A stretch of 40,762 bases of DNA from Limisphaerales bacterium. Lineage in GTDB: Bacteria; Verrucomicrobiota; Verrucomicrobiia; Limisphaerales; BOG-1460. The notes beneath the pieces are model-generated. The model ran no database searches. It was not told the origin of the DNA and saw nothing but the letters and a program-made list of their open reading frames with translations. The DNA lies in assembly GCA_003159675.1 (NCBI GenBank), contig PLQC01000033.1:1-40762 (forward strand), in the 5' to 3' direction. Position numbers and translations under genes: made by a program. Of this stretch, positions 8,252 to 18,448 are shown piece by piece; positions within the stretch are counted from its first letter, which is position 1; every line of letters begins with the position of its first letter.

Positions 8252-8424
8252 CACCCGTGCAGAACCTGCTGCACAAGCAGGGAGAGCATCGTTCGAGATC
8301 CGTGTTTTCACAATCCGGGGGCGCGCTGAAAACCGCCCGGGGGAAACACCGGGACACAGCCAGGCGCCGGGGGCGGGCCGCTTCTGCTTGCGCGCAGGCC
8401 GGGTTTGAATTATGCCTCTGCGCC

Positions 8425-9057
8425 TTGAAAAGACCCGATCGCACACCCATCCCGCGCAAGACGATTTATCGTTTGTCGGTTTATCTGCGCTGTCTGGCGC
8501 GTTTGAAAGACAAACACATTCAGACCGTTTCCAGCGAGGCACTCGCCAAGGTGGCCGGTGTGAAACCGACCCAGCTCCGGAAAGACCTGGCCTGCTTCGG
8601 GCAGTTCGGCACGCGCGGACTCGGTTATGACGTGGCCGAGCTGTCCGGGATGATTTCCGACGAGCTGGGCACCACCCGTTTGCAGCCCGTCGTTCTGGTC
8701 GGTGTTGGCAGCCTCGGACTGGCGCTCCTTTCGTATCGCGGTTTCGAGAAGGAGGGGTTTGAGTTGCTGGCGGCGTTCGACGCCGAGCCGACGCGGCGGC
8801 GGGACAAGAAGATCTCCCAGCCGGTTTACGGGATGGAGGAACTCGAGGCGTTCGCGCAGAAGTCAGGTGTCAAGATGGCCATCCTCACCGTGCCGGCCGC
8901 CGTCGCGCAGGAAGTGGCAAATCGCCTGGTCCGCGCCGGCATCACGGGCATCCTGAACTTTGCACCGATCGTTCTCTCGGTTCCTGAGGAGGTGATGGTC
9001 AACAACGTCAACCTCGCCATCGAACTCGAGAACCTCAGTTACTTCATCCAGGAGTAA
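8425..9057 (+). CDS. rex: Redox-sensing transcriptional repressor Rex
   Basis: A Rex-family repressor that senses the NADH/NAD+ ratio. It has an N-terminal winged helix (TIYRLSVYLRCLARL, then AGVKPTQLRKDLACFGQFGTRG) and a C-terminal Rossmann domain with VVLVGVGSLGLALL, ending in the domain-swap helix ENLSYFIQE. The open frame extends further upstream, but that extension is Arg/Ala-rich and unlike Rex. The TTG at 8425 gives 210 residues, the normal family length, and a first residue just before PRKTIYRL. No convincing Shine-Dalgarno sequence is visible. Rex proteins usually repress fermentative and respiratory genes when NADH is low; here the next genes are a membrane redox complex whose promoter carries a Rex-site-like sequence. 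Confidence 0.93.
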   Translation: MKRPDRTPIPRKTIYRLSVYLRCLARLKDKHIQTVSSEALAKVAGVKPTQLRKDLACFGQFGTRGLGYDVAELSGMISDELGTTRLQPVVLVGVGSLGLALLSYRGFEKEGFELLAAFDAEPTRRRDKKISQPVYGMEELEAFAQKSGVKMAILTVPAAVAQEVANRLVRAGITGILNFAPIVLSVPEEVMVNNVNLAIELENLSYFIQE

Positions 9058-9073: not shown

Positions 9074-9454
9074 TCAGGCCGGGTGCAGCGACGCTTTCCG
9101 CTTCCGCGCCTTCTTGGCCGGCTTTGGAGCCTTCGCCGGCTCGGCGGCTTCGGGCGCCGCCGGATCCGCCAGGTATAAATACCGGCCGCAACTGTCGCAG
9201 AGCTGGATGTCGCGGTCGTGCATCAGGGTCATGATCACGGCCATGGGCAGGCGCATATGGCAGCCGGTGCAGACCTGATCGCGCACCATGGCCATCCCTC
9301 TTTTCCCGCGCGCAATCAGGCGGTCGTAGTGACTGAGGATCGGCTGTGGGATTTTGGCGCGAACCTTCGCGGCAGATGCCTCGGCGTTCTCGACTTTGAC
9401 GTCGCCGAATTCGAGCGATTGAAGTCTGACAAGGTTTTGGAGTAGTTCATTCAT
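9074..9454 (-). CDS. C4-type zinc-ribbon protein
   Basis: A 126-residue protein with a short helical N-terminus, a zinc ribbon built from CTGC (CTGCHMRLP) and CDSC (CDSCGRYLYL), and an Ala/Pro/Lys-rich tail. The ribbon resembles the C-terminal part of the bacterial CT398/zf-RING_7 family, whose longer members have a coiled coil before the ribbon; here the coil is largely missing. The function is not established. It follows the hydrogenase-related operon by 43 bases on the same strand and could be its last gene, or could use its own promoter in that gap. It is convergent with rex, 16 bases apart. Confidence 0.75.
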   Translation of the reverse strand: MNELLQNLVRLQSLEFGDVKVENAEASAAKVRAKIPQPILSHYDRLIARGKRGMAMVRDQVCTGCHMRLPMAVIMTLMHDRDIQLCDSCGRYLYLADPAAPEAAEPAKAPKPAKKARKRKASLHPA

Positions 9455-9496: not shown

Positions 9497-10264
9497 TCAG
9501 CAAGACGAATCGATGCGACCCAGCAGCCGCAACAATCCGTCCAGGATCGTGATGGGATGCGGTGGACAACCGGGAATGTAGAGGTCCACGGGAAAGAGGC
9601 CGTCGGCGCCGTTCCGTTGTTCGGGGTGGCCGGCGTAAGGGCCGCCGGAGATGGCGCAGGCGCCCAGGGCGATGACCAGCCTGGGCGGCGGCACAGCCTC
9701 GTAGGTGGCGCGCAAGGCTGAATCCATGTTGCAGGTGACCGGGCCGGTGACGAGCAGGCCGTCGGCATGACGGGGTGACGCCACGAACTGGATGCCGAAT
9801 CGGCCCAAATCAAACACGACGGTGTTGAGCACGTTCACATCGGCCTCGCAGCCGTTGCATCCGCCGGCGCTGACCTGGCGCAGTTTGAGCGAGCGGCCGA
9901 AGAGCTTGCGCGTTTTTTGTTCCAGTGCCTGCGCCAGTTGAAAGGGTTCCGGACCGAGGACCAGCGCCTCACGGCGTGAAACAGCGAGACGGTGTTCCGG
10001 CGTCATGCGAATGGCGCCTTCGGGACAGGCGCGCTCGCACTCGGGACAGAACAGACAGCGTCCCAGATCCAGCCGCACCCCCTTGTCGCCGATCGTGATC
10101 GCCTCCGTCGGGCAGGCGTCGGCGCACGACCGGCAGCCCTCCGGGCATTTGGTGGAATCGATTTCCGGCCGCCCGCGCATGCGGTCGGGCAGTACCGGCG
10201 GTTGATCGGGAAAACCGACCGTGCGGTACTTCTGGTGAACGCGGGCCAGCAACGGTTTCAGCAT
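9497..10264 (-). CDS. Fused ferredoxin and small subunit of hydrogenase-related complex (HyfH/HyfI-like)
   Basis: A 255-residue iron-sulfur protein. Residues 35-90 form a two-cluster ferredoxin: Cys40, 44, 47 and 51, then Cys70, 73, 76 and 80. The first motif is C-x3-C-x2-C-x3-C instead of the usual C-x2-C. Residues 125-250 are a HyfI/HycG/NuoB-type small subunit with GGCNGCEAD (Cys136, 139), TGPVTC, GACAISGG (Cys203) and IPGCPPHP (Cys233), the ligands of the cluster next to the active site. In E. coli these two parts are separate proteins (HyfH and HyfI). The fusion suggests a fixed electron path from the ferredoxin clusters to the proximal cluster. A GAGGTG sequence precedes the ATG, and the gene starts 9 bases after the large-subunit gene ends. 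Confidence 0.88.
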   Translation of the reverse strand: MLKPLLARVHQKYRTVGFPDQPPVLPDRMRGRPEIDSTKCPEGCRSCADACPTEAITIGDKGVRLDLGRCLFCPECERACPEGAIRMTPEHRLAVSRREALVLGPEPFQLAQALEQKTRKLFGRSLKLRQVSAGGCNGCEADVNVLNTVVFDLGRFGIQFVASPRHADGLLVTGPVTCNMDSALRATYEAVPPPRLVIALGACAISGGPYAGHPEQRNGADGLFPVDLYIPGCPPHPITILDGLLRLLGRIDSSC

Positions 10265-10273
10265 GATGTCACC

Positions 10274-11797
10274 TCACAAGTCATGGCCGCAGTAGGACAG
10301 GTTGAAACTCTTGTTGCAGAGCGGGAAATCGGAGATCTGCTGGTTCCGCAGTGCCAGCGTCAACCCCATCCAATTATGGAAGGAGGGGTCCACCACCTTG
10401 TAATGCGCAAATCGTCCCGTCGCATCGGTGGTGGCCACGTGGCAGATCTCGCCGCGCCAGCCTTCGGTCAGCGACACGACCAGATGTTGAGGCGCGAGCG
10501 GTCCGATTTCCGCCCGGACCGGCCCGTGGGGCAGCGCCTGCAGTTGATCCGAGATGAACGCGAGCGACCGTTGGATTTCCATCCAGCGGACGTAGGCGCG
10601 CGCGAACACGGTTCCCGAGTGGTAGGAGGAGACGGGGATTTGCGCGAACCGGTAGAGGCCCGAGGGGAATTGTGCGCGAACATCCCGTTCGATTCCGCTC
10701 GCTCGAGCCGCCAGGCCGACCAGTCCCAACTCCAAAGCCGTCTCGCGCGAGACCGGCCCGGCATTTTCAAACCGGGACCGGACGGACGAGGAATTCCAGA
10801 GCAATTCGACCGCGCTCGTCACGTCCTGGCGCGCCTGCGCCAGCCGTTCCACCATTTGCGACTGCCGGGCCGGCTCCAGATCAAACAAGGCGCCCCCGGG
10901 CCGAATCAGTCCTCTTCCAAAACGGTTCCCGCAAAGCAGGGCCGTCAGATTCAGGAAATCCCCCCGGATGCGGCCGCAGTAGCTCGCCGTCGGCAGGTAA
11001 CCGACGTCGTCCGCGAGCGCTCCGAGGTCGCCGGTATGGTTGGCCAGCCGTTCCAATTCGAGCGCGATTGCCCTGAGGGCCTGGGCTCGAGCGGGGGCAT
11101 CGACGCCGGCCAGGGCTTCGACCGCCTCGCAATAGGCGAGGGTATGGCCGACGGTCGTATCGCCCGCCAGGGTCTCCATGAAGGGGATGGTGCGCTTGTT
11201 CGGGCCCCCCACGAGCGCGCGCTCCACGCCCCGATGCTGGTAGCCGAGAGCGATTTCGAGGTGATAGACCTGTTCGCCGTGACATTGAAAACGGAAGTGA
11301 CCGGGCTCGATGATTCCGGCGTGCACCGGTCCCACTGCCACCTCATGGACTTCATCACCGCCCATTGCAAAGAAATCGGTCACACCCGGTTGAATCGGGC
11401 TTTTCGCACTGCGGCCCCAGGCGTCATGTCCTTCGCGATAGGAATGGTGGTAGCGGACCGGTTTCAACCAGGGATGGCCGTCGGGATGGACGCCCCATTG
11501 CTCCGCCAGTTCGCGCTCGAACCCTTGCGCCTGTGCGCAGGAGGGCGTCAGCGCCGGGTAATGATCGGGCACCATCGCGGACCAAAGCGCGAGTTGGCCT
11601 TTGACATCACTGGCCATCACGGCAAACAGGCGCGTGTTCCCGTCGGCGGCGGGCTGGCCGAACAGCGCTGCGATGCGCGAGCCGCCTTCGCATGCCTGCA
11701 ACACGCGTTCCCTGAAGTCCGTGATCGTGGGGACGGGGATGTCCCCGAGCTGCACGGGTTCCCCATTGTGCAGGGCATTCGGAGCAGCGGCCTTCAT
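10274..11797 (-). CDS. Large subunit of hydrogenase-related complex without NiFe ligands (HyfG/HycE-like)
   Basis: A 507-residue protein with the two-part build of HycE/HyfG: a NuoC-like N-terminal domain (about 25-120) fused to a NuoD-like large subunit (about 140-507), including GGDEVHEVAVGPVHAGIIEPGHFRF and ALGYQHRGVER. In hydrogenases of group 4 the NiFe site is held by two CxxC motifs. Aligned by eye, the first reads LAGDTTVGH (about 210-218), with Ala and Thr in place of the cysteines. The second reads SFNLSYCGHDL at the very C-terminus, with Ser and Gly in place of the cysteines and one extra Cys between them. The protein cannot bind NiFe in the known way, so H2 chemistry is unlikely. 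This is the mark of Ehr-type complexes. It overlaps the upstream gene by ATGA. Confidence 0.9.
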   Translation of the reverse strand: MKAAAPNALHNGEPVQLGDIPVPTITDFRERVLQACEGGSRIAALFGQPAADGNTRLFAVMASDVKGQLALWSAMVPDHYPALTPSCAQAQGFERELAEQWGVHPDGHPWLKPVRYHHSYREGHDAWGRSAKSPIQPGVTDFFAMGGDEVHEVAVGPVHAGIIEPGHFRFQCHGEQVYHLEIALGYQHRGVERALVGGPNKRTIPFMETLAGDTTVGHTLAYCEAVEALAGVDAPARAQALRAIALELERLANHTGDLGALADDVGYLPTASYCGRIRGDFLNLTALLCGNRFGRGLIRPGGALFDLEPARQSQMVERLAQARQDVTSAVELLWNSSSVRSRFENAGPVSRETALELGLVGLAARASGIERDVRAQFPSGLYRFAQIPVSSYHSGTVFARAYVRWMEIQRSLAFISDQLQALPHGPVRAEIGPLAPQHLVVSLTEGWRGEICHVATTDATGRFAHYKVVDPSFHNWMGLTLALRNQQISDFPLCNKSFNLSYCGHDL

Positions 11798-13275
11798 GTA
11801 GCTCCTCCCAGGGTTCTGGCGATTTCCCGGAGCACGTTGTCGAGGGATTCAGGCACCGCCAGGCCGAGCCACAAAACCAGGAGGCCCAATACGACGGGGG
11901 GAGCGATTTGCCAGACGCGGTCGCGGCCCGGCCCGATCGGCTTCTCCGGTTCGCCCTGAGCCATGCCGAGGAAGGCCGTTGTCATCCCGATGAAAATCAC
12001 GGCCAACAACCCGAGGAACACAACACCCACCCACATACCCCAGGGTTGACCGGTGTCGAAGGCGGCTTTCAGGATCAACAACTTGCTCGTGAAGGTCCCG
12101 AATGGCGGCGTGCCGGTGATGGCGAGGAAGCCTGCGACCCAGAGCAGTCCCGTGGCCGGCGCCGCCCCCAACAACCCTTTCACCTGGGCGATGGTCTTGG
12201 TCCGATAGCGGGCCAGGATATTCCCCGAGAGCAAAAACAACATGGCTTTGGCGAGCGAATGATTCACGGCGTGGAACAGGGCGCCGAACGCGCCGGCGCT
12301 CCCCAGGCCGACGCCGACCGCCATGATGCCCATGTTCTCGACGCTCGAGTAGGCCAGCAAGCGTTTGTAATCCGTCTGGCCGAGGATGAACACCGCGCCG
12401 ATCACCAGGGACGTCAGCCCCAGCGCAATCCAGACGTCCCGTCCAAAATTTCCCAACCCGGCGGCGACACACACCTGTTGCGCGCGGAGCAGCCCCAAAA
12501 ACGCGCAGTTCAGGACCGCGCCGGAGAGCAAAGCGGAAACAACCGAGGGCGCCTCGCTATGGGCGTCGGGCAGCCAGGTGTGGAGGGGAGCCAGGCCCAT
12601 TTTCGTCCCGTAACCGACGAAGAACAGCAGGCAGGCGGCCTTGAGCCACGGGACCTGAAGGTCGCGGGCGTGCGCAACGAGTTCGGACAGCACGAGCGGA
12701 TAGGCGTCCACGCCGGGCTGGGTGGCCGCGATGCCCAGAAAGAAGTTGGCCAGCAAGGCCAGTGCAATTCCGACTGAGCAGATCAGGAGGTATTTCCACG
12801 TGGCTTCGAGCGAGCGGTGGTGTTTGTGGAAATAGATCAACGGCGCGCTGGTGAGGGTGGTCGCCTCGATCGCCACCCAGAGCAGGCCGAAGTGCTGGCT
12901 GACCGTCACCAGCGACATCGCGGCCAGGAACAGGAGCAAACATCCGATGAAGACCGTCTCGGGGGCGTTGTCGAACAGGAACCCTTCCTCGATGTCCGTC
13001 GTGTGCTTATTCGCTTCCTGGACGAGATAACCCATGGCGTAAAATGCCGCCGCCAGAAACAGAACGCTGATGATGCTCAGAAACAGGAGGCCCGCGGCAT
13101 CCAGCTTAAGCCAGCCGCCCAGAGCCGGGGCCGGGGTCCACTTCCAGCAGGCTGCGGTCAGCGCGGCGTGCGCGAGCGCGGTGACGAGGAGCAGCCCGCG
13201 ACGCAGGGCTGCGCCGGGCAAGGCGAATGCCGCCAGGCCGGCGAGTGCGGGAACAATGAGCAGGGCTAGAATCAT
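11794..13275 (-). CDS. Proton/ion-translocating membrane subunit (HyfF-like)
   Basis: A 493-residue polytopic membrane protein of the NuoL/NuoM/MrpD antiporter-like family, closest in gene order to HyfF. Many hydrophobic helices are visible, with the family's charged or polar motifs: KYLLICSVGIALAL, the lysine-bearing GTKMGLAPLHTWLPDAHSEAPS, DYKRLLAYSSVENMG and HAVNHSLAKAMLFL. These residues form the ion channel in related subunits. The start chosen is the ATG at 13275, two bases after the stop of the HyfE-like gene; the longer open frame would overlap that gene. It is translationally coupled to the large-subunit gene by a 4-base overlap. Confidence 0.9.
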   Translation of the reverse strand: MILALLIVPALAGLAAFALPGAALRRGLLLVTALAHAALTAACWKWTPAPALGGWLKLDAAGLLFLSIISVLFLAAAFYAMGYLVQEANKHTTDIEEGFLFDNAPETVFIGCLLLFLAAMSLVTVSQHFGLLWVAIEATTLTSAPLIYFHKHHRSLEATWKYLLICSVGIALALLANFFLGIAATQPGVDAYPLVLSELVAHARDLQVPWLKAACLLFFVGYGTKMGLAPLHTWLPDAHSEAPSVVSALLSGAVLNCAFLGLLRAQQVCVAAGLGNFGRDVWIALGLTSLVIGAVFILGQTDYKRLLAYSSVENMGIMAVGVGLGSAGAFGALFHAVNHSLAKAMLFLLSGNILARYRTKTIAQVKGLLGAAPATGLLWVAGFLAITGTPPFGTFTSKLLILKAAFDTGQPWGMWVGVVFLGLLAVIFIGMTTAFLGMAQGEPEKPIGPGRDRVWQIAPPVVLGLLVLWLGLAVPESLDNVLREIARTLGGAT

Positions 13276-13277
13276 GA

Positions 13278-13919
13278 TCAATCCTTCAACGAGCTCAACC
13301 GGTCGGTGTCGATATGATCGAACTCGCGGTTGATGTGGAAGATCGTAATGCCCATGACGAACACGGCGACAAAGACATCCAGCAACACGCCCGCCTCGAC
13401 GAGCAGGGACGCCTGGGGTGCGACGCCGACGCCGAAGGTATAGACGCCGTTTTCGAGCACCAAAAAGCCCAGGACTTGGCTCACCGCGCGTTTGCGGCTG
13501 ACGATGAGGAACAGTCCCGCGAAGATGGAGAAGATCGCCACCGGGGCCAGCCAGGCTGAGGCGATGGCTTCCGGCATGGGCAGCCGCGTGCACATCCAGA
13601 ACGACACAGCCAGGATCGAGACACCCGCCAGGAGCGAGGCGACGTATCCGACGAAAGGCTCGATTTCCCGGGCCACTTCGGCTTCGCGCACGGCCCGAAA
13701 CAGGAACCAGGGAAACACGATGCCTTTGAGCGCGACGGTCCCCACCGCCAGCCCTGCGTAACGCCAGGAAATCTCGTGAGCGTGTGCGAGGATTGGCAGG
13801 AGACCGAGCACGACGCCCTGCGCGGCCACGACGCGGATGGAGGAACCGACCCGGCTCGAGCCGAGCAGTTTCAGATTCGTCAGCACAACCAGAACGAGAA
13901 TGATGTTGGTGCCTTGCAT
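13278..13919 (-). CDS. Membrane subunit of hydrogenase-related complex (HyfE-like)
   Basis: A 213-residue protein with about six to seven hydrophobic helices. The C-terminal part has GFLVLENGVYTFG and HINREFDHIDTDRLSSLKD, which match the HyfE family, whose helices are related to NuoK/MrpC. It should sit between the antiporter-like subunits in the membrane arm. The order HyfC-HyfE-HyfF is the same as in the E. coli hyf operon, with hyfD missing. Ten bases separate it from the upstream gene. Confidence 0.85.
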   Translation of the reverse strand: MQGTNIILVLVVLTNLKLLGSSRVGSSIRVVAAQGVVLGLLPILAHAHEISWRYAGLAVGTVALKGIVFPWFLFRAVREAEVAREIEPFVGYVASLLAGVSILAVSFWMCTRLPMPEAIASAWLAPVAIFSIFAGLFLIVSRKRAVSQVLGFLVLENGVYTFGVGVAPQASLLVEAGVLLDVFVAVFVMGITIFHINREFDHIDTDRLSSLKD

Positions 13920-13929
13920 GCGGAGTCGC

Positions 13930-14844
13930 CTAATTCAATTTGAGCGCCAAAAGAAACGCGGTTGCGGCCAGCGCGCCGGCCCCGACGAGCAGTTGCGGCA
14001 CGATCATCAGCCGTAGCCGGGCCATGACCGATTCGATCACCCCGACGATCACCGCGACCCCAAACACGGCGCCCACGGCCAGGAGCAGGTTGAGCCGGGG
14101 ATCTCCCGTCCCGGGCAACACGATGCCGACCACCAGCGCCGACAGGAGCCACAGTTTCAACGCCGCGGAGTAAAAGATGAACGCCAGGTCCGGCCCGCCA
14201 TGGTCGAGCACCATGACTTCGTGGATCATCGTCAGTTCGAGATGGGTGTTCGGATCGTCCACCGGAATGCGCGAGTTTTCGGCCAGCAACACAATCATCA
14301 ATGCAAGAACCACCAGCCCCAGCGCCGGCCCGGAGTGGAGCCAATGGGCATTCGATACCTGCCCAAACATCGTTGAGAGCGAAAGCTGCCCGGTTTCTCG
14401 CACCAGTGTCGCCAGCGCGACGAACAATGCCGGTTCAGTCAGTGCGGAGAAAAAAACCTCCCTGCTGGCTCCCATTCCTTCAAAACTTGAACCCGTGTCG
14501 AGCGCCGCGACAACGGTAAAGAACCGCATCAATCCGAGAAGTCCAGCGAAGAGCAGGAAATCCGCCGGGAACGCGAGCGAGGCGGGGCATTTACCCAACG
14601 GCATCAGCAGCGTCGCCGTCAACGCCGCCGCCAGCCCAATCATTGGTCCGGCACGGAATAGCCAAGTCGTTGTGCGGCTGTAAACCGCGCCTTTTTGCAG
14701 GAGTTTCCACAAATCAAAATAAGTTTGAAGCAGCGGTTGACCATGTCGTCCCGCAAAAAACGCCTTGGTGCGGTTGATAACGCCAAGCAATAACGGCGAC
14801 AGCGTAAGCGCCAGCAACAGTGGAATGAAGGAAATGGCGTTCAT
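13930..14844 (-). CDS. Membrane anchor subunit (HyfC/HycD/NuoH-like)
   Basis: A 304-residue polytopic protein of the NuoH family that connects the soluble and membrane arms in complex I-like enzymes. Typical segments are NRTKAFFAGRHGQPLLQTYFDL near the N-terminus, FEGMGASREVFFSALTEPALF, and the conserved acidic loop NSRIPVDDPNTHLELTMIHE, which lies close to the quinone or catalytic cavity in relatives. It begins 3 bases after the HyfB-like gene ends. Its upstream half belongs to a stretch of lower GC content that covers most of the next gene. Confidence 0.92.
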   Translation of the reverse strand: MNAISFIPLLLALTLSPLLLGVINRTKAFFAGRHGQPLLQTYFDLWKLLQKGAVYSRTTTWLFRAGPMIGLAAALTATLLMPLGKCPASLAFPADFLLFAGLLGLMRFFTVVAALDTGSSFEGMGASREVFFSALTEPALFVALATLVRETGQLSLSTMFGQVSNAHWLHSGPALGLVVLALMIVLLAENSRIPVDDPNTHLELTMIHEVMVLDHGGPDLAFIFYSAALKLWLLSALVVGIVLPGTGDPRLNLLLAVGAVFGVAVIVGVIESVMARLRLMIVPQLLVGAGALAATAFLLALKLN

Positions 14845-14847
14845 GGC

Positions 14848-16839
14848 TCAACGTAATTTCCAAACCAGCAAAACAATCAGCGTCACCGCGATGTAGAGCA
14901 CGTAAAGCTGGACTTTGCCGTGTTGCACCCAGTGCAACCGGGAGAGCCATTCATTGATACGTTCAAACACGGGCCGGTACATTTGTTCATGAGAAATGTC
15001 AGGCGTGGTGGTCTTTAGCGCAGCTTCTTCAGGAAAAAGGCCGTGTGGTGGTGAAATTTTTTTCTTCGTGCCAAGCAACGGCCCGAATAAATCCGTCAGC
15101 GGCTGGGCGAACGATGAGGCGGTGTATTGCATCCGGGCGGTCGGCTGCGCATAACCGCATCCCCACGTGATGTCCGCTTCCACCCGACGGCGCGCAAGTA
15201 AATGGCGTCGCAACAAAATCAGCACAGCCAGCAGCGTCAGGAATAGAGCCGCCCCCAACACAATAAATGACAGCGGACTTGTTGTGGCGGCGAGGTTTCC
15301 GCTGACGGTCGCGGGTTGTAACTTCGTTATGTTTTCTAAAACCGTCTTCAAACTTCCGACGACAACCGGCGCGAACAAACCGATGAGAATGCACCCAACC
15401 GCCAGTATCAGCATGGGCAATCGCATGGTCCAATCCGCCTCGTGCGCGTGCGATGCGTGTTCACTGCGCGGTTCGCCGAGGAACACGATGCCAAATGCCT
15501 TGGTGAAACACGCCGCCGCCAGCCCGCCAATCAACGCCAGGCCGGCAATCAGCGCGAACAACGGCACGGCAATTGCACCGCCAGCCGAAATACCGCCCTT
15601 GAACGCACCTAGAAAAATCAGGAACTCACTCACGAAACCGTTCAAAGGTGGAAGCCCCGAAATAGCCACAGCGCCAATAAGAAAAGTCGCTGCTGTCCAT
15701 GGCATTCGTTTCAGCAGACCGCCGAGATGGTCAATTTCACGTGTTCCCGCACCATGCAACACCGCGCCGGCCCCAAGAAACAATAACCCTTTGAACAAGG
15801 CGTGATTGACCACATGCAACAATCCGCCGCCGAACCCGAGCACGATAAGCACAGGCGAACCCGTGCTCACGCCCAACAATCCGGCGCCAAGGCCCAAGGT
15901 GATGATGCCGATGTTTTCGACGCTGTGATACGCCAGCAACCGTTTCAGGTCATGTTGTGCCAGCGCAAACAACACGCCGAGCACACCCGAAGTCAACCCG
16001 ATGGCAATGAGTCCCCACCCCCACCACAACGGCGGCGCGCCCAGAAACGTGAACGTACGTAGCAATCCATAAATTCCCGTCTTGATCATCACTCCTGACA
16101 TTAGTGCCGATACGTGACTCGGCGCGGCGGGATGCGCCTCCGGCAACCACACGTGAAGCGGCATGAAACCGGCCTTGGTGCCGAATCCGATGACTGCCAG
16201 TAAAAAAAGAATGCTGGCCAGCCGCTGCGCCTGGACACCTTTCGCCGCCCAAACCGTGAAATCCATGGAACCAGTGTCGCGCGCCAGCAAAAGAAAAAAT
16301 GCCAACAGAAAAGCCGTGCCGAGATGTGTTGCAACCAGGTAAATCCAGCCGGCCTCGCGCACCGATTCGGATTCGTGCTCGAACGTCACCAGGAAGAACG
16401 ACGCCACAGCCATCACCTCCCAAGCGAACAGGAACAGCATCCCGTTGCGGGCCAGCAGAACCAATGTCATGCTCAGGACCAGCAGACAGTAAAACGACCA
16501 GACCGGTCCAAGACCGCGGCGTCCCTGCCACCTGCGCAAATAGCCCACCCCGTAGATGGCCGACAGCGCCGAAAGCAGGAGCGTCGGCAAAAGAAACCAC
16601 GCGGTGAGCGGATCGATCTCAATGAAAAACTCCCCCATTGGGATGGGCCAGGGCATGCGAAACCGTTCGACGAGGGAACTGCCCGCCATGACCTGCACCG
16701 CCGGAATGGAGCCGAGCACGGCCGCGACGACCACCGAACCTGCGCCCAGCCAGGAAACGATCGGGTCGTGATGGTTTATCAGCAACGTAACCACCGCGCC
16801 CAGGGCTAGAAAGGCCAGCGCGAACAGCATCCACGTCAC
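14848..16839 (-). CDS. Proton/ion-translocating membrane subunit (HyfB-like)
   Basis: A 663-residue antiporter-like protein of the NuoL/HyfB family with more than a dozen hydrophobic helices. Motifs include the glutamate-bearing LFLFAWEVMAVASFFLV, GTKAGFMPLHVWLPEAHPAAPS, DLKRLLAYHSVENIGI and HVVNHALFKGLLFLGAG. The start is GTG 16839: an AAGGAG sequence lies 8 bases upstream, while the next ATG at 16830 would be 17 bases away. The GTG overlaps the TGA of the HTH-EIIA gene as GTGA, so translation is probably coupled. The open frame extending further upstream is only a shadow of that gene. Roughly 14300-16400 has lower GC than both neighbours. Confidence 0.92.
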   Translation of the reverse strand: MTWMLFALAFLALGAVVTLLINHHDPIVSWLGAGSVVVAAVLGSIPAVQVMAGSSLVERFRMPWPIPMGEFFIEIDPLTAWFLLPTLLLSALSAIYGVGYLRRWQGRRGLGPVWSFYCLLVLSMTLVLLARNGMLFLFAWEVMAVASFFLVTFEHESESVREAGWIYLVATHLGTAFLLAFFLLLARDTGSMDFTVWAAKGVQAQRLASILFLLAVIGFGTKAGFMPLHVWLPEAHPAAPSHVSALMSGVMIKTGIYGLLRTFTFLGAPPLWWGWGLIAIGLTSGVLGVLFALAQHDLKRLLAYHSVENIGIITLGLGAGLLGVSTGSPVLIVLGFGGGLLHVVNHALFKGLLFLGAGAVLHGAGTREIDHLGGLLKRMPWTAATFLIGAVAISGLPPLNGFVSEFLIFLGAFKGGISAGGAIAVPLFALIAGLALIGGLAAACFTKAFGIVFLGEPRSEHASHAHEADWTMRLPMLILAVGCILIGLFAPVVVGSLKTVLENITKLQPATVSGNLAATTSPLSFIVLGAALFLTLLAVLILLRRHLLARRRVEADITWGCGYAQPTARMQYTASSFAQPLTDLFGPLLGTKKKISPPHGLFPEEAALKTTTPDISHEQMYRPVFERINEWLSRLHWVQHGKVQLYVLYIAVTLIVLLVWKLR

Positions 16840-17546
16840 TGCGCCGTCTCCTTTTCCACCACAGTTGCCGGAACACGCAGGCTGTCGCTGATGCGCCTGG
16901 CCGCGCCAAGAATCTCGTCCCGGCTGGCTTGTCGAACGATGAGGGATTTGAAATCGGGATCGCGCAAGGCGAACGCCAGGCGCGAAAGCAGGTGCAGATG
17001 CGCTTTGACGGTCGGACTGATGAGTGTGAACAGGGTTTGGACCGGCTGACCGTCCAGCGCTCCAAAATCCACCGGTGCCTCGAGAAAACACAAGGTCACC
17101 GCCGGCTCCGGAACATGGAGCACGATGGGATTCCGCACGTGCGGAATTGCAATGCCATCGCCAATGGCCGTTGATTCCAGCGCTTCGCGTGCGAGCAGAA
17201 CCTGGAGGAGGAATTCGCGATCCACCGCGTCGGGCAACTTGAGCACCTCAACCACATTTCTGAGCACAGATGGCTTGTTACTGCCTGTCAGGCGGTAAAA
17301 AACACCGCCTCTTTCCATGGCATCGGACAATTCCGGAAGCGGTCCGGAGCGATTCTCAGGCTCCTCGAAGATGCGGGGAGAGACATTGATCCGATTGGCG
17401 GTGGACCATTCGAGCAGCTCGGCTCGATTGAAGCGATATTGGCCGCTTAGGCGATAACCCGGCAGTTTTCGCTCGTCAATCCAGCGATACACCGTCTTTT
17501 CCGAGATGTTCAACAGCCCGGCGACATCTTTGACCGTAAGTTGCAT
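16836..17546 (-). CDS. HTH-EIIA regulator (excisionase-type helix-turn-helix fused to PTS EIIA domain)
   Basis: A 236-residue two-domain protein. Residues 1-50 form a MerR/excisionase-like helix-turn-helix (LTVKDVAGLLNISEKTVYRWI, then RFNRAELLEW). Residues about 77-235 form a PtsN/fructose-type EIIA domain with the phosphorylatable His136 in GIAIPHVRN. No other PTS domain is present, so it is likely a regulatory protein whose activity depends on phosphorylation by EI/HPr-type proteins or on binding partners. An ATG at 17597 would add 17 residues, but it lies upstream of the predicted transcription start, so the ATG at 17546, where the conserved domain begins, is preferred. It is the first gene of the hydrogenase-related operon and overlaps the next one by GTGA. 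Confidence 0.85.
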   Translation of the reverse strand: MQLTVKDVAGLLNISEKTVYRWIDERKLPGYRLSGQYRFNRAELLEWSTANRINVSPRIFEEPENRSGPLPELSDAMERGGVFYRLTGSNKPSVLRNVVEVLKLPDAVDREFLLQVLLAREALESTAIGDGIAIPHVRNPIVLHVPEPAVTLCFLEAPVDFGALDGQPVQTLFTLISPTVKAHLHLLSRLAFALRDPDFKSLIVRQASRDEILGAARRISDSLRVPATVVEKETAQ

Positions 17547-17577: not shown

Positions 17578-17597
17578 CTATGGACATCTATGGACAT
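17578..17597. repeat. 10-base tandem direct repeat at the operon promoter
   Basis: CTATGGACAT occurs twice without a gap (17578-17587 and 17588-17597), around the predicted start of the leftward transcript and over the -35 of the rightward one. It could be a binding site for the operon's own helix-turn-helix regulator. This is inference from position only. Confidence 0.4.
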
Positions 17598-17609
17598 AAT
17601 TGTGATAAT
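17581..17609 (+). promoter_or_regulatory. Candidate promoter of the glycerophosphodiesterase gene
   Basis: TGGACA (17581-17586) and GATAAT (17604-17609) are 17 bases apart, each one base off consensus, and a TG lies one base before the -10. Transcription would start near 17616-17618, at the ATG itself, giving a leaderless or nearly leaderless message. That fits the lack of a ribosome-binding site. Confidence 0.45.
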
Positions 17610-17624
17610 GAATACAAATGTCAA
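17596..17624 (-). promoter_or_regulatory. Candidate promoter of the hydrogenase-related operon
   Basis: Reading leftward, a perfect TTGACA (-35, 17624-17619) is followed after 17 bases by AATTAT (17601-17596), which matches 4 of 6 bases of the -10 consensus. The transcript would start near 17589, about 43 bases before the ATG at 17546. Confidence 0.5.
17600..17617. promoter_or_regulatory. Rex-operator-like palindrome in the divergent promoter
   Basis: TTGTGATAATGAATACAA resembles the Rex consensus TTGTGAA-N4-TTCACAA: 10 of the 14 defined positions match, with a perfect left TTGTGA and a right ACAA. It fills the spacer between -35 and -10 of the leftward promoter, a classical repressor position, and covers the -10 of the rightward promoter. 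rex lies about 8.5 kb away on the far side of the operon. Confidence 0.4.
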
Positions 17625-18448
17625 GCAGGGCAAACTCAGGATCAAGTTCACCCGCGCTGGACCGGATTTCAATCGATCGCCCTTTAGTGATTTGCCATCG
17701 CGGTTACGGCGCCGTCGCGCCTGAGAATACACTGGTGTCCTTCGAGCTCGGGCTTGACGCGGGTGCCGATTTGATCGAACTGGACTATCGACACAGCCAG
17801 GACGGCGTGCCGGTGGTGATCCACGACAGCACGTTCGATCGGACGACGAATTCCCTCGAAGTCTGGGGTCGCCGTCGCGTGAGGGTCGCGAGCAAGACCG
17901 CGGAGAAAATTCGGGCGTTGGATGCGGGAAGCTGGTTTGGTGCACGCTTCGCGGGCGTCGGAGTGCCGCTGCTGACGGAGGCATTGGATTTCATTCTGGC
18001 CGGCGGCGGTGTGCCGCTGGTCGAGCACAAGTCGGGCGATGCGGCGGCCAGTGCGAAGCTGTTGCGCGAGGGCGGATGGATCAACCGGGTTGTGCTCATG
18101 TCGTTCGACTGGTCGTTCCTGCGTGAGTTTCATGAGATCGAGCCCGGGCAGGTGCTGGGTGCGCTCGGCCCGGCGGTGAGTCTGGCCGATGGCAGAAGGG
18201 CTTCCCGGTTTTCCAGGAACTGCGGTCGGGGGTGGCTGGACGAATTGGAGAAGACCGGGGCGGCCATCGTGATTTGGAGCCGCCGGGTTTCGAGGGACGC
18301 CATCCGGCTTGCGCACTCGCGCGGGCTGAGAGTCTGGGTTTACACCGTGGACCATCCAAAGCTCGCGGTTCGGTTGTGCGGGATCGGTGTGGACGGGATC
18401 ATCACGAACAAAATTGCCCGGATCCAACATGCGCTGGGCACGTGTTGA
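17618..18448 (+). CDS. Glycerophosphodiester phosphodiesterase
   Basis: A 276-residue GDPD-family protein with a TIM-barrel pattern. Active-site residues are visible in ICHRGYGAVAPENT (His27, Arg28, Glu36), IELDYRHSQDGVPVVIHD (Glu54, Asp56, His69) and VEHKS. The C-terminal VWVYTVD and GVDGIITNK are typical. It would cut glycerophosphodiesters from phospholipid turnover into glycerol 3-phosphate and an alcohol. No signal peptide is seen, so it is probably cytoplasmic, like UgpQ. It is divergent from the hydrogenase-related operon, with overlapping promoters. The ATG at 17618 has no ribosome-binding site and may start a leaderless message. Confidence 0.9.
   Translation: MSSRANSGSSSPALDRISIDRPLVICHRGYGAVAPENTLVSFELGLDAGADLIELDYRHSQDGVPVVIHDSTFDRTTNSLEVWGRRRVRVASKTAEKIRALDAGSWFGARFAGVGVPLLTEALDFILAGGGVPLVEHKSGDAAASAKLLREGGWINRVVLMSFDWSFLREFHEIEPGQVLGALGPAVSLADGRRASRFSRNCGRGWLDELEKTGAAIVIWSRRVSRDAIRLAHSRGLRVWVYTVDHPKLAVRLCGIGVDGIITNKIARIQHALGTC

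Follow-up and report, generated by a model that had tools for sequence, protein, structure and literature searches.

A NiFe-less member of the Ehr family in a Limisphaerales genome: a conserved pocket in a putative ion-pumping complex

What does a membrane complex built like a group 4 [NiFe] hydrogenase do once its large subunit has lost the metal site? The question is raised by a minus-strand operon at positions 16839-9497 of a 40,762-nucleotide stretch of DNA from a Limisphaerales bacterium (the whole stretch is here called the window, and lies on contig C83 of a draft genome of 4.1 Mb labelled G000). Open reading frames and matches to Pfam and NCBIfam identify HyfB-, C-, E-, F- and G-like subunits and a ferredoxin-HyfI fusion, here EhrA, EhrB, EhrC, EhrD, EhrL and EhrS (Table 1). 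Judged by its sequence, the complex is a real, intact and conserved member of the published Ehr (energy-converting hydrogenase-related) family.

Ehr has been reported from Geobacter, Methylacidiphilum, Sulfobacillus, Nitrospira, ammonia-oxidising archaea and Cyanobacteria-sibling lineages, with its function stated to be unknown; in Nitrospira moscoviensis H2 did not raise its expression (PMC12342949). Within the complex I superfamily, Ehr is widespread and without a known reaction, and if its acceptor were neither a quinone, protons nor sulfur, it would represent an unrecognised energy-conserving step in many uncultured anaerobes.

Loss of the NiFe ligands and family membership

Both CxxC motifs of the large subunit are gone, as an initial annotation of this DNA had noted: HycE C241, C244, C531 and C534 align with EhrL A211, T214, S501 and G504, and the loss of the ligands is fixed across relatives. 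Among approximately 115 aligned NiFe-less relatives from many phyla, none has cysteine at the last three ligand positions and one (L043) has it at the first, indicating that the substitutions do not stem from an assembly error. Shared substitutions and open frames in intact order together rule out both an assembly error and a pseudogene. Since the replacement motifs (GPVHAG[IV]IEPGHF, AGD[TS][TS]x[GA]H and NKSFNLSYxGxD) are themselves strongly conserved in the relatives' alignment, the remodelled pocket is, at the sequence level, under purifying selection and not decaying. The loss is specific to the Ehr complex, because two other group 4 large subunits of the same genome, on contig C7, have intact CxxC motifs. 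The loci concerned on contig C7 (L007/L008) also carry a formate dehydrogenase-like gene, a cytosolic hydrogenase, and genes for proteases and HypA/HypF-like proteins; besides Ehr, the host seems to be equipped with genes for NiFe maturation.

In a tree of the D-domain, built under a mixture model with all three motif regions removed, one NiFe-less clade (bootstrap/Shimodaira-Hasegawa-like approximate likelihood ratio test, 100/99) unites the window EhrL with its Geobacter argillaceus counterpart and with sequences representing many phyla, separate from a NuoD clade (100/100) and from the CxxC-bearing group 4 sequences. A larger quick tree agrees, with Geomonas also inside the NiFe-less clade. 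Placement of EhrL with HycE/HyfG was rejected by an approximately unbiased (AU) test of a forced Ehr1 plus HycE/HyfG grouping (p-AU 0.0007). A forced grouping of all NiFe-less proteins with NuoD was not rejected (p-AU 0.25), so that one loss or two losses of the metal in Ehr and complex I are both compatible with the data. The single clade with Geobacter Ehr and the rejected HycE/HyfG placement assign the window complex to Ehr, as initially claimed. Among the matches listed, the closest named relative of EhrL comes from a metagenome-assembled genome (MAG) of the Limisphaerales (Verrucomicrobiota), at 79% identity; the G. argillaceus protein is 59% identical, and a genome scan yielded at least 572 confirmed relatives.

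We took the family definition from later papers that cite Coppi 2005 and Marreiros 2013. Three features of an Ehr complex are found in the window: a large subunit homologous to group 4 hydrogenases without Ni/Fe-coordinating residues, a six-subunit ehrABCDLS operon with NuoL-, HyfE- and NuoH-like membrane subunits, and a common clade with Geobacter Ehr. For a fourth, an assembled and expressed membrane complex, what is known is protein abundance in G. sulfurreducens (PMC7894505). The Ehr of Geobacter sulfurreducens (GSU0739-0745) has the same subunit set, has lost the same four NiFe ligands and belongs to the same clade, and we identified no difference that would remove the window complex from the family.

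With formate hydrogenlyase (FHL) and hydrogenase 4 (HycE, HyfG; group 4a) the complex shares the large-subunit fold, a HycD-like anchor and HyfB/E/F-like subunits, but it lacks the NiFe-binding CxxC motifs and falls outside HycE/HyfG in the tree. With respiratory complex I (NuoB/C/D/H/I/L/M) it shares module architecture, the charge channel, a fused C/D-like large subunit and the absence of NiFe. In contrast to complex I, EhrL lies outside the NuoD clade, the NADH module NuoEFG was not found within the window operon (host complex I genes are on contig C62), and the complex I ligands of the quinone head group, Nqo4 His38 and Tyr87, align with EhrL Ile163 and Gly212.

Pocket, electron path, membrane arm and regulator

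The AlphaFold2 model of EhrL (single chain; predicted local distance difference test score, pLDDT, 88.7) has its best structural match in HycE (7z0s_E; Z 46.8, root-mean-square deviation 2.6 over 493 residues, nearly the whole length) and reaches Z ~44 against the 49-kDa subunits of complex I. Model confidence is below 50 for the E164 loop and the last five residues, which is expected because such parts normally contact other subunits. The loop glutamate of HycE (Glu193; MbhL E21), which acts as a proton donor (PMC9474812, PMC7684303), corresponds to EhrL E164 and is invariant (117/117 sequences), whereas MBS, the NiFe-less sulfane sulfur reductase, has no such residue (PMC7684303). Further residues of the proton path named from the FHL structure (PMC9474812) are kept: HycE His284, Arg395, Glu437 and Arg478 are EhrL H254, R365, E407 and R448. 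In contrast, the canopy residue Asp529, described as strictly conserved (PMC9474812), is N499 in EhrL, and Pro477 is W447 in 115/116 aligned sequences. The new pocket lining, D213, T/S214, H218, W447, R448, K496, S497, N499 and S501, is strictly conserved. Because E164 is kept, both Asp529 and Pro477 are replaced and MBS lacks the loop glutamate, Ehr as read from these alignments keeps the proton donor in a pocket unlike that of hydrogenase, MBS or complex I.

EhrS consists of an N-terminal ferredoxin domain followed by a HyfI/NuoB-like domain. It keeps all four proximal-cluster cysteines (C136, C139, C203 and C233) with hydrogenase-type CxxC spacing, as well as all eight ferredoxin cysteines, and these are conserved among relatives. 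The small subunit thus retains its cluster cysteines, as the initial annotation had stated, and the conserved residues are consistent with its suggestion that electrons would enter through the fused ferredoxin part. EhrS does not have the shortened three-Cys proximal motif on which MBS catalysis relies (PMC7684303).

Related complexes form a series, from Ehr1 through a sister lineage, Ehr2, to a C105 type, with growing cluster loss. Ehr2 (L088 12302-19916, L035-L037, L133-L156), with a large subunit 37-39% identical, keeps the proximal cluster and only one of the two ferredoxin clusters; in L088 an Ehr1 operon lies immediately upstream of it. The C105 type is a second, more eroded NiFe-less complex in the window's own genome (L006 6195-16702, contig C105), with HyfC-E-F-G-I-like genes and two NuoL-like genes. 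In its small subunit the outer ferredoxin cluster is gone, as is one cysteine of the proximal cluster (PGNPPPP); an 80% identical relative, L132, shares the PGN, and its reading frame appears shifted.

In the membrane arm, both EhrA (E142, K223, K254, H343, H347, K351, E406 and C562) and EhrD (E137, K225, H232 and K304) retain conserved residues, including the Glu and Lys residues through which antiporter-like subunits transfer protons, consistent with the earlier claim that two such subunits may pump ions. EhrA keeps the lysine of transmembrane helix 7 that HycC lost (K223, where HycC has Leu208; comparison with FHL from PMC9474812), and its C-terminal ND3-like region has a conserved loop cysteine (C562, HycC C537). 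In EhrB the E-channel residues R107, E129, E137, E189, D196, E203 and E209 are conserved; among solved relatives HycD comes closest (85.7 bits), followed by MbhM (65 bits), with a chloroplast complex I homologue marginal at 19 bits. We additionally identified extra NuoL-like EhrA copies near 18 of the loci examined (L058, L062, L064, L067, L072, L074, L093, L096, L100, L116 and others), and in several Geobacter-type loci the regulator described below is paired with such a copy.

A protein joining a helix-turn-helix (HTH) domain to an EIIA domain of the phosphotransferase system (PTS) is the usual neighbour of Ehr. In a profile search, a copy adjoins or sits in 38 of the 56 Ehr operons with usable upstream sequence, across about nine phyla, and only three further copies lie elsewhere in the same loci. 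The phospho-acceptor motif of the window regulator, AIPHVRNP, is intact, and AIPH(V/A)RNP or a close form occurs in most of 42 aligned homologues, copies between ehrA and ehrB carrying a variant [AG]x[AP]H form. We infer that the regulator may control the operon in response to how far the PTS relay of the cell is phosphorylated. No link between EIIA/PtsN-HTH proteins and hydrogenases was described in the open-access literature searched, which is no proof of novelty, and neither this partner nor the pocket signature was found in the literature searched on Ehr. New here are the regulator link, the invariant loop glutamate combined with the Asp-to-Asn and Pro-to-Trp changes, the loss of the quinone ligands, and the genome counts of quinone, formate dehydrogenase (FDH) and 2-oxoacid:ferredoxin oxidoreductase genes given below. 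The residue list, regulator link and counts make the Ehr question approachable by mutants and assays in G. sulfurreducens.

Proposed mechanism and competing explanations

We propose, with a probability of about one half, that Ehr is a ferredoxin-driven ion pump that reduces a small molecule. A reduced low-potential carrier would pass electrons to the pair of clusters in the ferredoxin domain of EhrS and on to the proximal [4Fe-4S] cluster bordering the former NiFe pocket; the residues for this route are present, with a fully ligated proximal cluster beside the metal-ligand-free EhrL pocket. There a small acceptor, organic or inorganic, which need not be a quinone, would be reduced with proton uptake through E164, and the charge channel of EhrB would relay loop movements to EhrA and EhrD, which would export H+ or Na+. 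The HTH-EIIA regulator would tune the operon to the PTS phosphorylation state. A more specific form of this proposal, in which the metal-free pocket (D213, H218, W447, K496, N499 and S501) reduces a non-quinone, non-sulfur molecule in a proton-coupled, ferredoxin-driven and PTS-EIIA-switched reaction, adding a further chemistry to the complex I superfamily, is tentative.

Several points weigh against the proposed pump. Ehr complexes have no measured reaction, and pump activity is a prediction. The case for ferredoxin as the donor is built on the domain and on co-occurrence. We counted genes over 42 genomes carrying the window Ehr type, mostly incomplete MAGs of unstated completeness, so that single absences mean little. 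The 2-oxoacid:ferredoxin oxidoreductase family (PF01855) is present in 41/42, but the association is weak because it also matches in 10/14 control genomes. The cluster losses in the ferredoxin part of Ehr2 and of the C105 type suggest that the electron path may be dispensable in some members. Finally, Trp447 beside the canopy arginine could simply fill the old cavity, leaving no substrate site.

The alternative favoured by the initial annotation, a ferredoxin:menaquinone oxidoreductase pump in which a short complex I reduces menaquinone in the former NiFe cavity, is doubtful. The superposition of EhrL on complex I 49-kDa subunits, the ND3-like end of EhrA with its loop cysteine and the unrejected grouping of Ehr with NuoD all agree with it, as does the genome content in part: full MqnC-type matches (at least 375 bits) occur in 19/42 genomes, the window host included, and MenD matches over the cut-off in 4 others, giving one or the other in 23/42. 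However, the quinone-binding residues are replaced by Ile163 and Gly212, Asn499 stands in place of the canopy aspartate that complex I conserves, the anchor EhrB most resembles HycD and MbhM and not NuoH, and 19/42 genomes (mostly incomplete MAGs) have neither MqnC nor MenD. UbiA alone, found in 38/41 genomes, is not discriminating. A UbiX-UbiA-UbiD cluster is present in three of the 19, from Rectinema, Treponema and Kapaibacterium, and the remaining 16 have none at the UbiA loci examined. These clusters (L199 194-3134, L200 4408-7344 and L215 3926-7173, respectively) could act in late quinone steps, possibly as part of a salvage or otherwise unusual route to quinones, and their presence weakens the idea that the Ehr genomes of Rectinema and Treponema are wholly quinone-free. 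A quinone as the likely acceptor is therefore not upheld by the residues, the anchor and the counts; as a general acceptor it is not supported, and in some hosts it is possible. The wider wording of the initial annotation, which allowed another small molecule as acceptor, survives.

An FDH-Ehr complex feeding formate electrons to the pump is unlikely. G. sulfurreducens makes Ehr proteins, with all subunits at higher abundance on formate than when hydrogen was present (PMC7894505), and fdhA, nuoE-like and nuoF-like genes lie beside Ehr in Riflemargulisbacteria and Saganbacteria (PMC6349859). In contrast, the window operon contains no FDH and no HycB/HyfA gene, and a conserved extra electron-donor gene was looked for without any recurring across 80 related loci. 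Fdh-alpha has no match in 13/42 Ehr genomes, and the host FDH lies on contig C7, in a separate locus with the CxxC group 4 hydrogenases. Over the quinone and FDH counts together, the number of absences is large and they are repeated within lineages (three Elusimicrobia), which argues against both quinones and FDH as obligatory Ehr partners.

Similarly improbable is a redox-silent ion antiporter or pH-homeostasis machine whose peripheral arm is kept for structure or sensing. A role in pH homeostasis has been suggested for Methylacidiphilum (PMC6688271), and the cluster losses in the Ehr2 and C105 lineages and the PTS-EIIA regulator would fit, but the cluster cysteines of Ehr1 are strongly conserved.

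An MBS-like sulfane sulfur (polysulfide) reductase is very unlikely. MBS (Mbx) of Pyrococcus furiosus is likewise a ferredoxin-linked membrane complex without a NiFe site or quinone ligands (PMC7684303), yet its proximal cluster has three cysteines where EhrS has four with hydrogenase spacing, it lacks the loop glutamate, MbsL retains two of the four NiFe cysteines where EhrL has none (taken from the description in PMC7684303, not from direct alignment), and its membrane arm is of the Mrp type with more small subunits. An active NiFe hydrogenase obscured by sequencing errors, for which we found no point in favour, can be dismissed, since the same substitutions are common to more than 100 independent sequences and the two other group 4 genes of the genome keep CxxC.

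Gene map and neighbouring genes

Counting the regulator as the first, the operon has seven tightly spaced genes in the order regulator-EhrA-B-C-D-L-S, with overlaps at regulator/EhrA (GTGA) and EhrD/EhrL (ATGA). The initial annotation had read six genes, HyfB-C-E-F-G-(H/I), close or overlapping, and this order and spacing hold on the minus strand. Its span of 9497-17546 needs correction: the six hydrogenase-like genes end at 16839 (-), and 17546 belongs to the start codon of the regulator gene, which it did not mention.

Table 1. Positions of the operon genes, EhrL motifs and putative promoter in the window.
Feature	Positions	Strand	Evidence
Regulator, HTH_17 + PTS EIIA (PtsN-like), 236 aa	16836..17546	-	Pfam PTS_EIIA_2 1.7e-25, HTH_17 2.4e-13
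EhrA, NuoL/HyfB-like antiporter subunit, GTG start overlapping regulator stop	14848..16839	-	Pfam Proton_antipo_M 7.5e-53; NCBIfam hydrogenase 4 subunit B 6e-199
EhrB, NuoH/HycD/HyfC-like membrane anchor	13930..14844	-	Pfam NADHdh 5.8e-32; PDB matches HycD, MbhM
EhrC, HyfE-like membrane subunit	13278..13919	-	NCBIfam hydrogenase 4 membrane subunit 9e-23
EhrD, HyfF-like antiporter subunit	11794..13275	-	Pfam Proton_antipo_M 1.7e-53; hydrogenase 4 subunit F 1.2e-103
EhrL, HycE/HyfG/NuoCD-type large subunit (homologue), without NiFe ligands	10274..11797	-	Alignment, AlphaFold2 model
EhrS, 2[4Fe-4S] ferredoxin (HyfH-like) fused to proximal [4Fe-4S] small subunit (HyfI/NuoB-like)	9497..10264	-	Pfam Oxidored_q6 5.2e-29, Fer4
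EhrL residues 156-168, beta1-beta2 loop GPVHAGIIEPGHF	11294..11332	-	E164 aligns with HycE E193 / MbhL E21
EhrL residues 211-218, AGDTTVGH replacing CGxCxxxH	11144..11167	-	Alignment
EhrL residues 495-507, NKSFNLSYCGHDL replacing the C-terminal DPCxxCxxR motif	10277..10315	-	Alignment
Putative sigma-70-like promoter TTGACA-17-AATTAT, just upstream of regulator	17596..17624	-	Consensus match 10/12, by itself no evidence of function

Two genes next to the 3' end of the operon are not conserved Ehr neighbours in other loci: a Rex (NADH/NAD+ sensing) repressor gene at 8257-9057 (+), and a C4 zinc-ribbon gene at 9074-9454 (-), approximately 40 bp downstream of EhrS. On the other side, a glycerophosphodiester phosphodiesterase-family gene at 17618-18448 (+) is divergent from the operon, with approximately 70 bp between the start codons.

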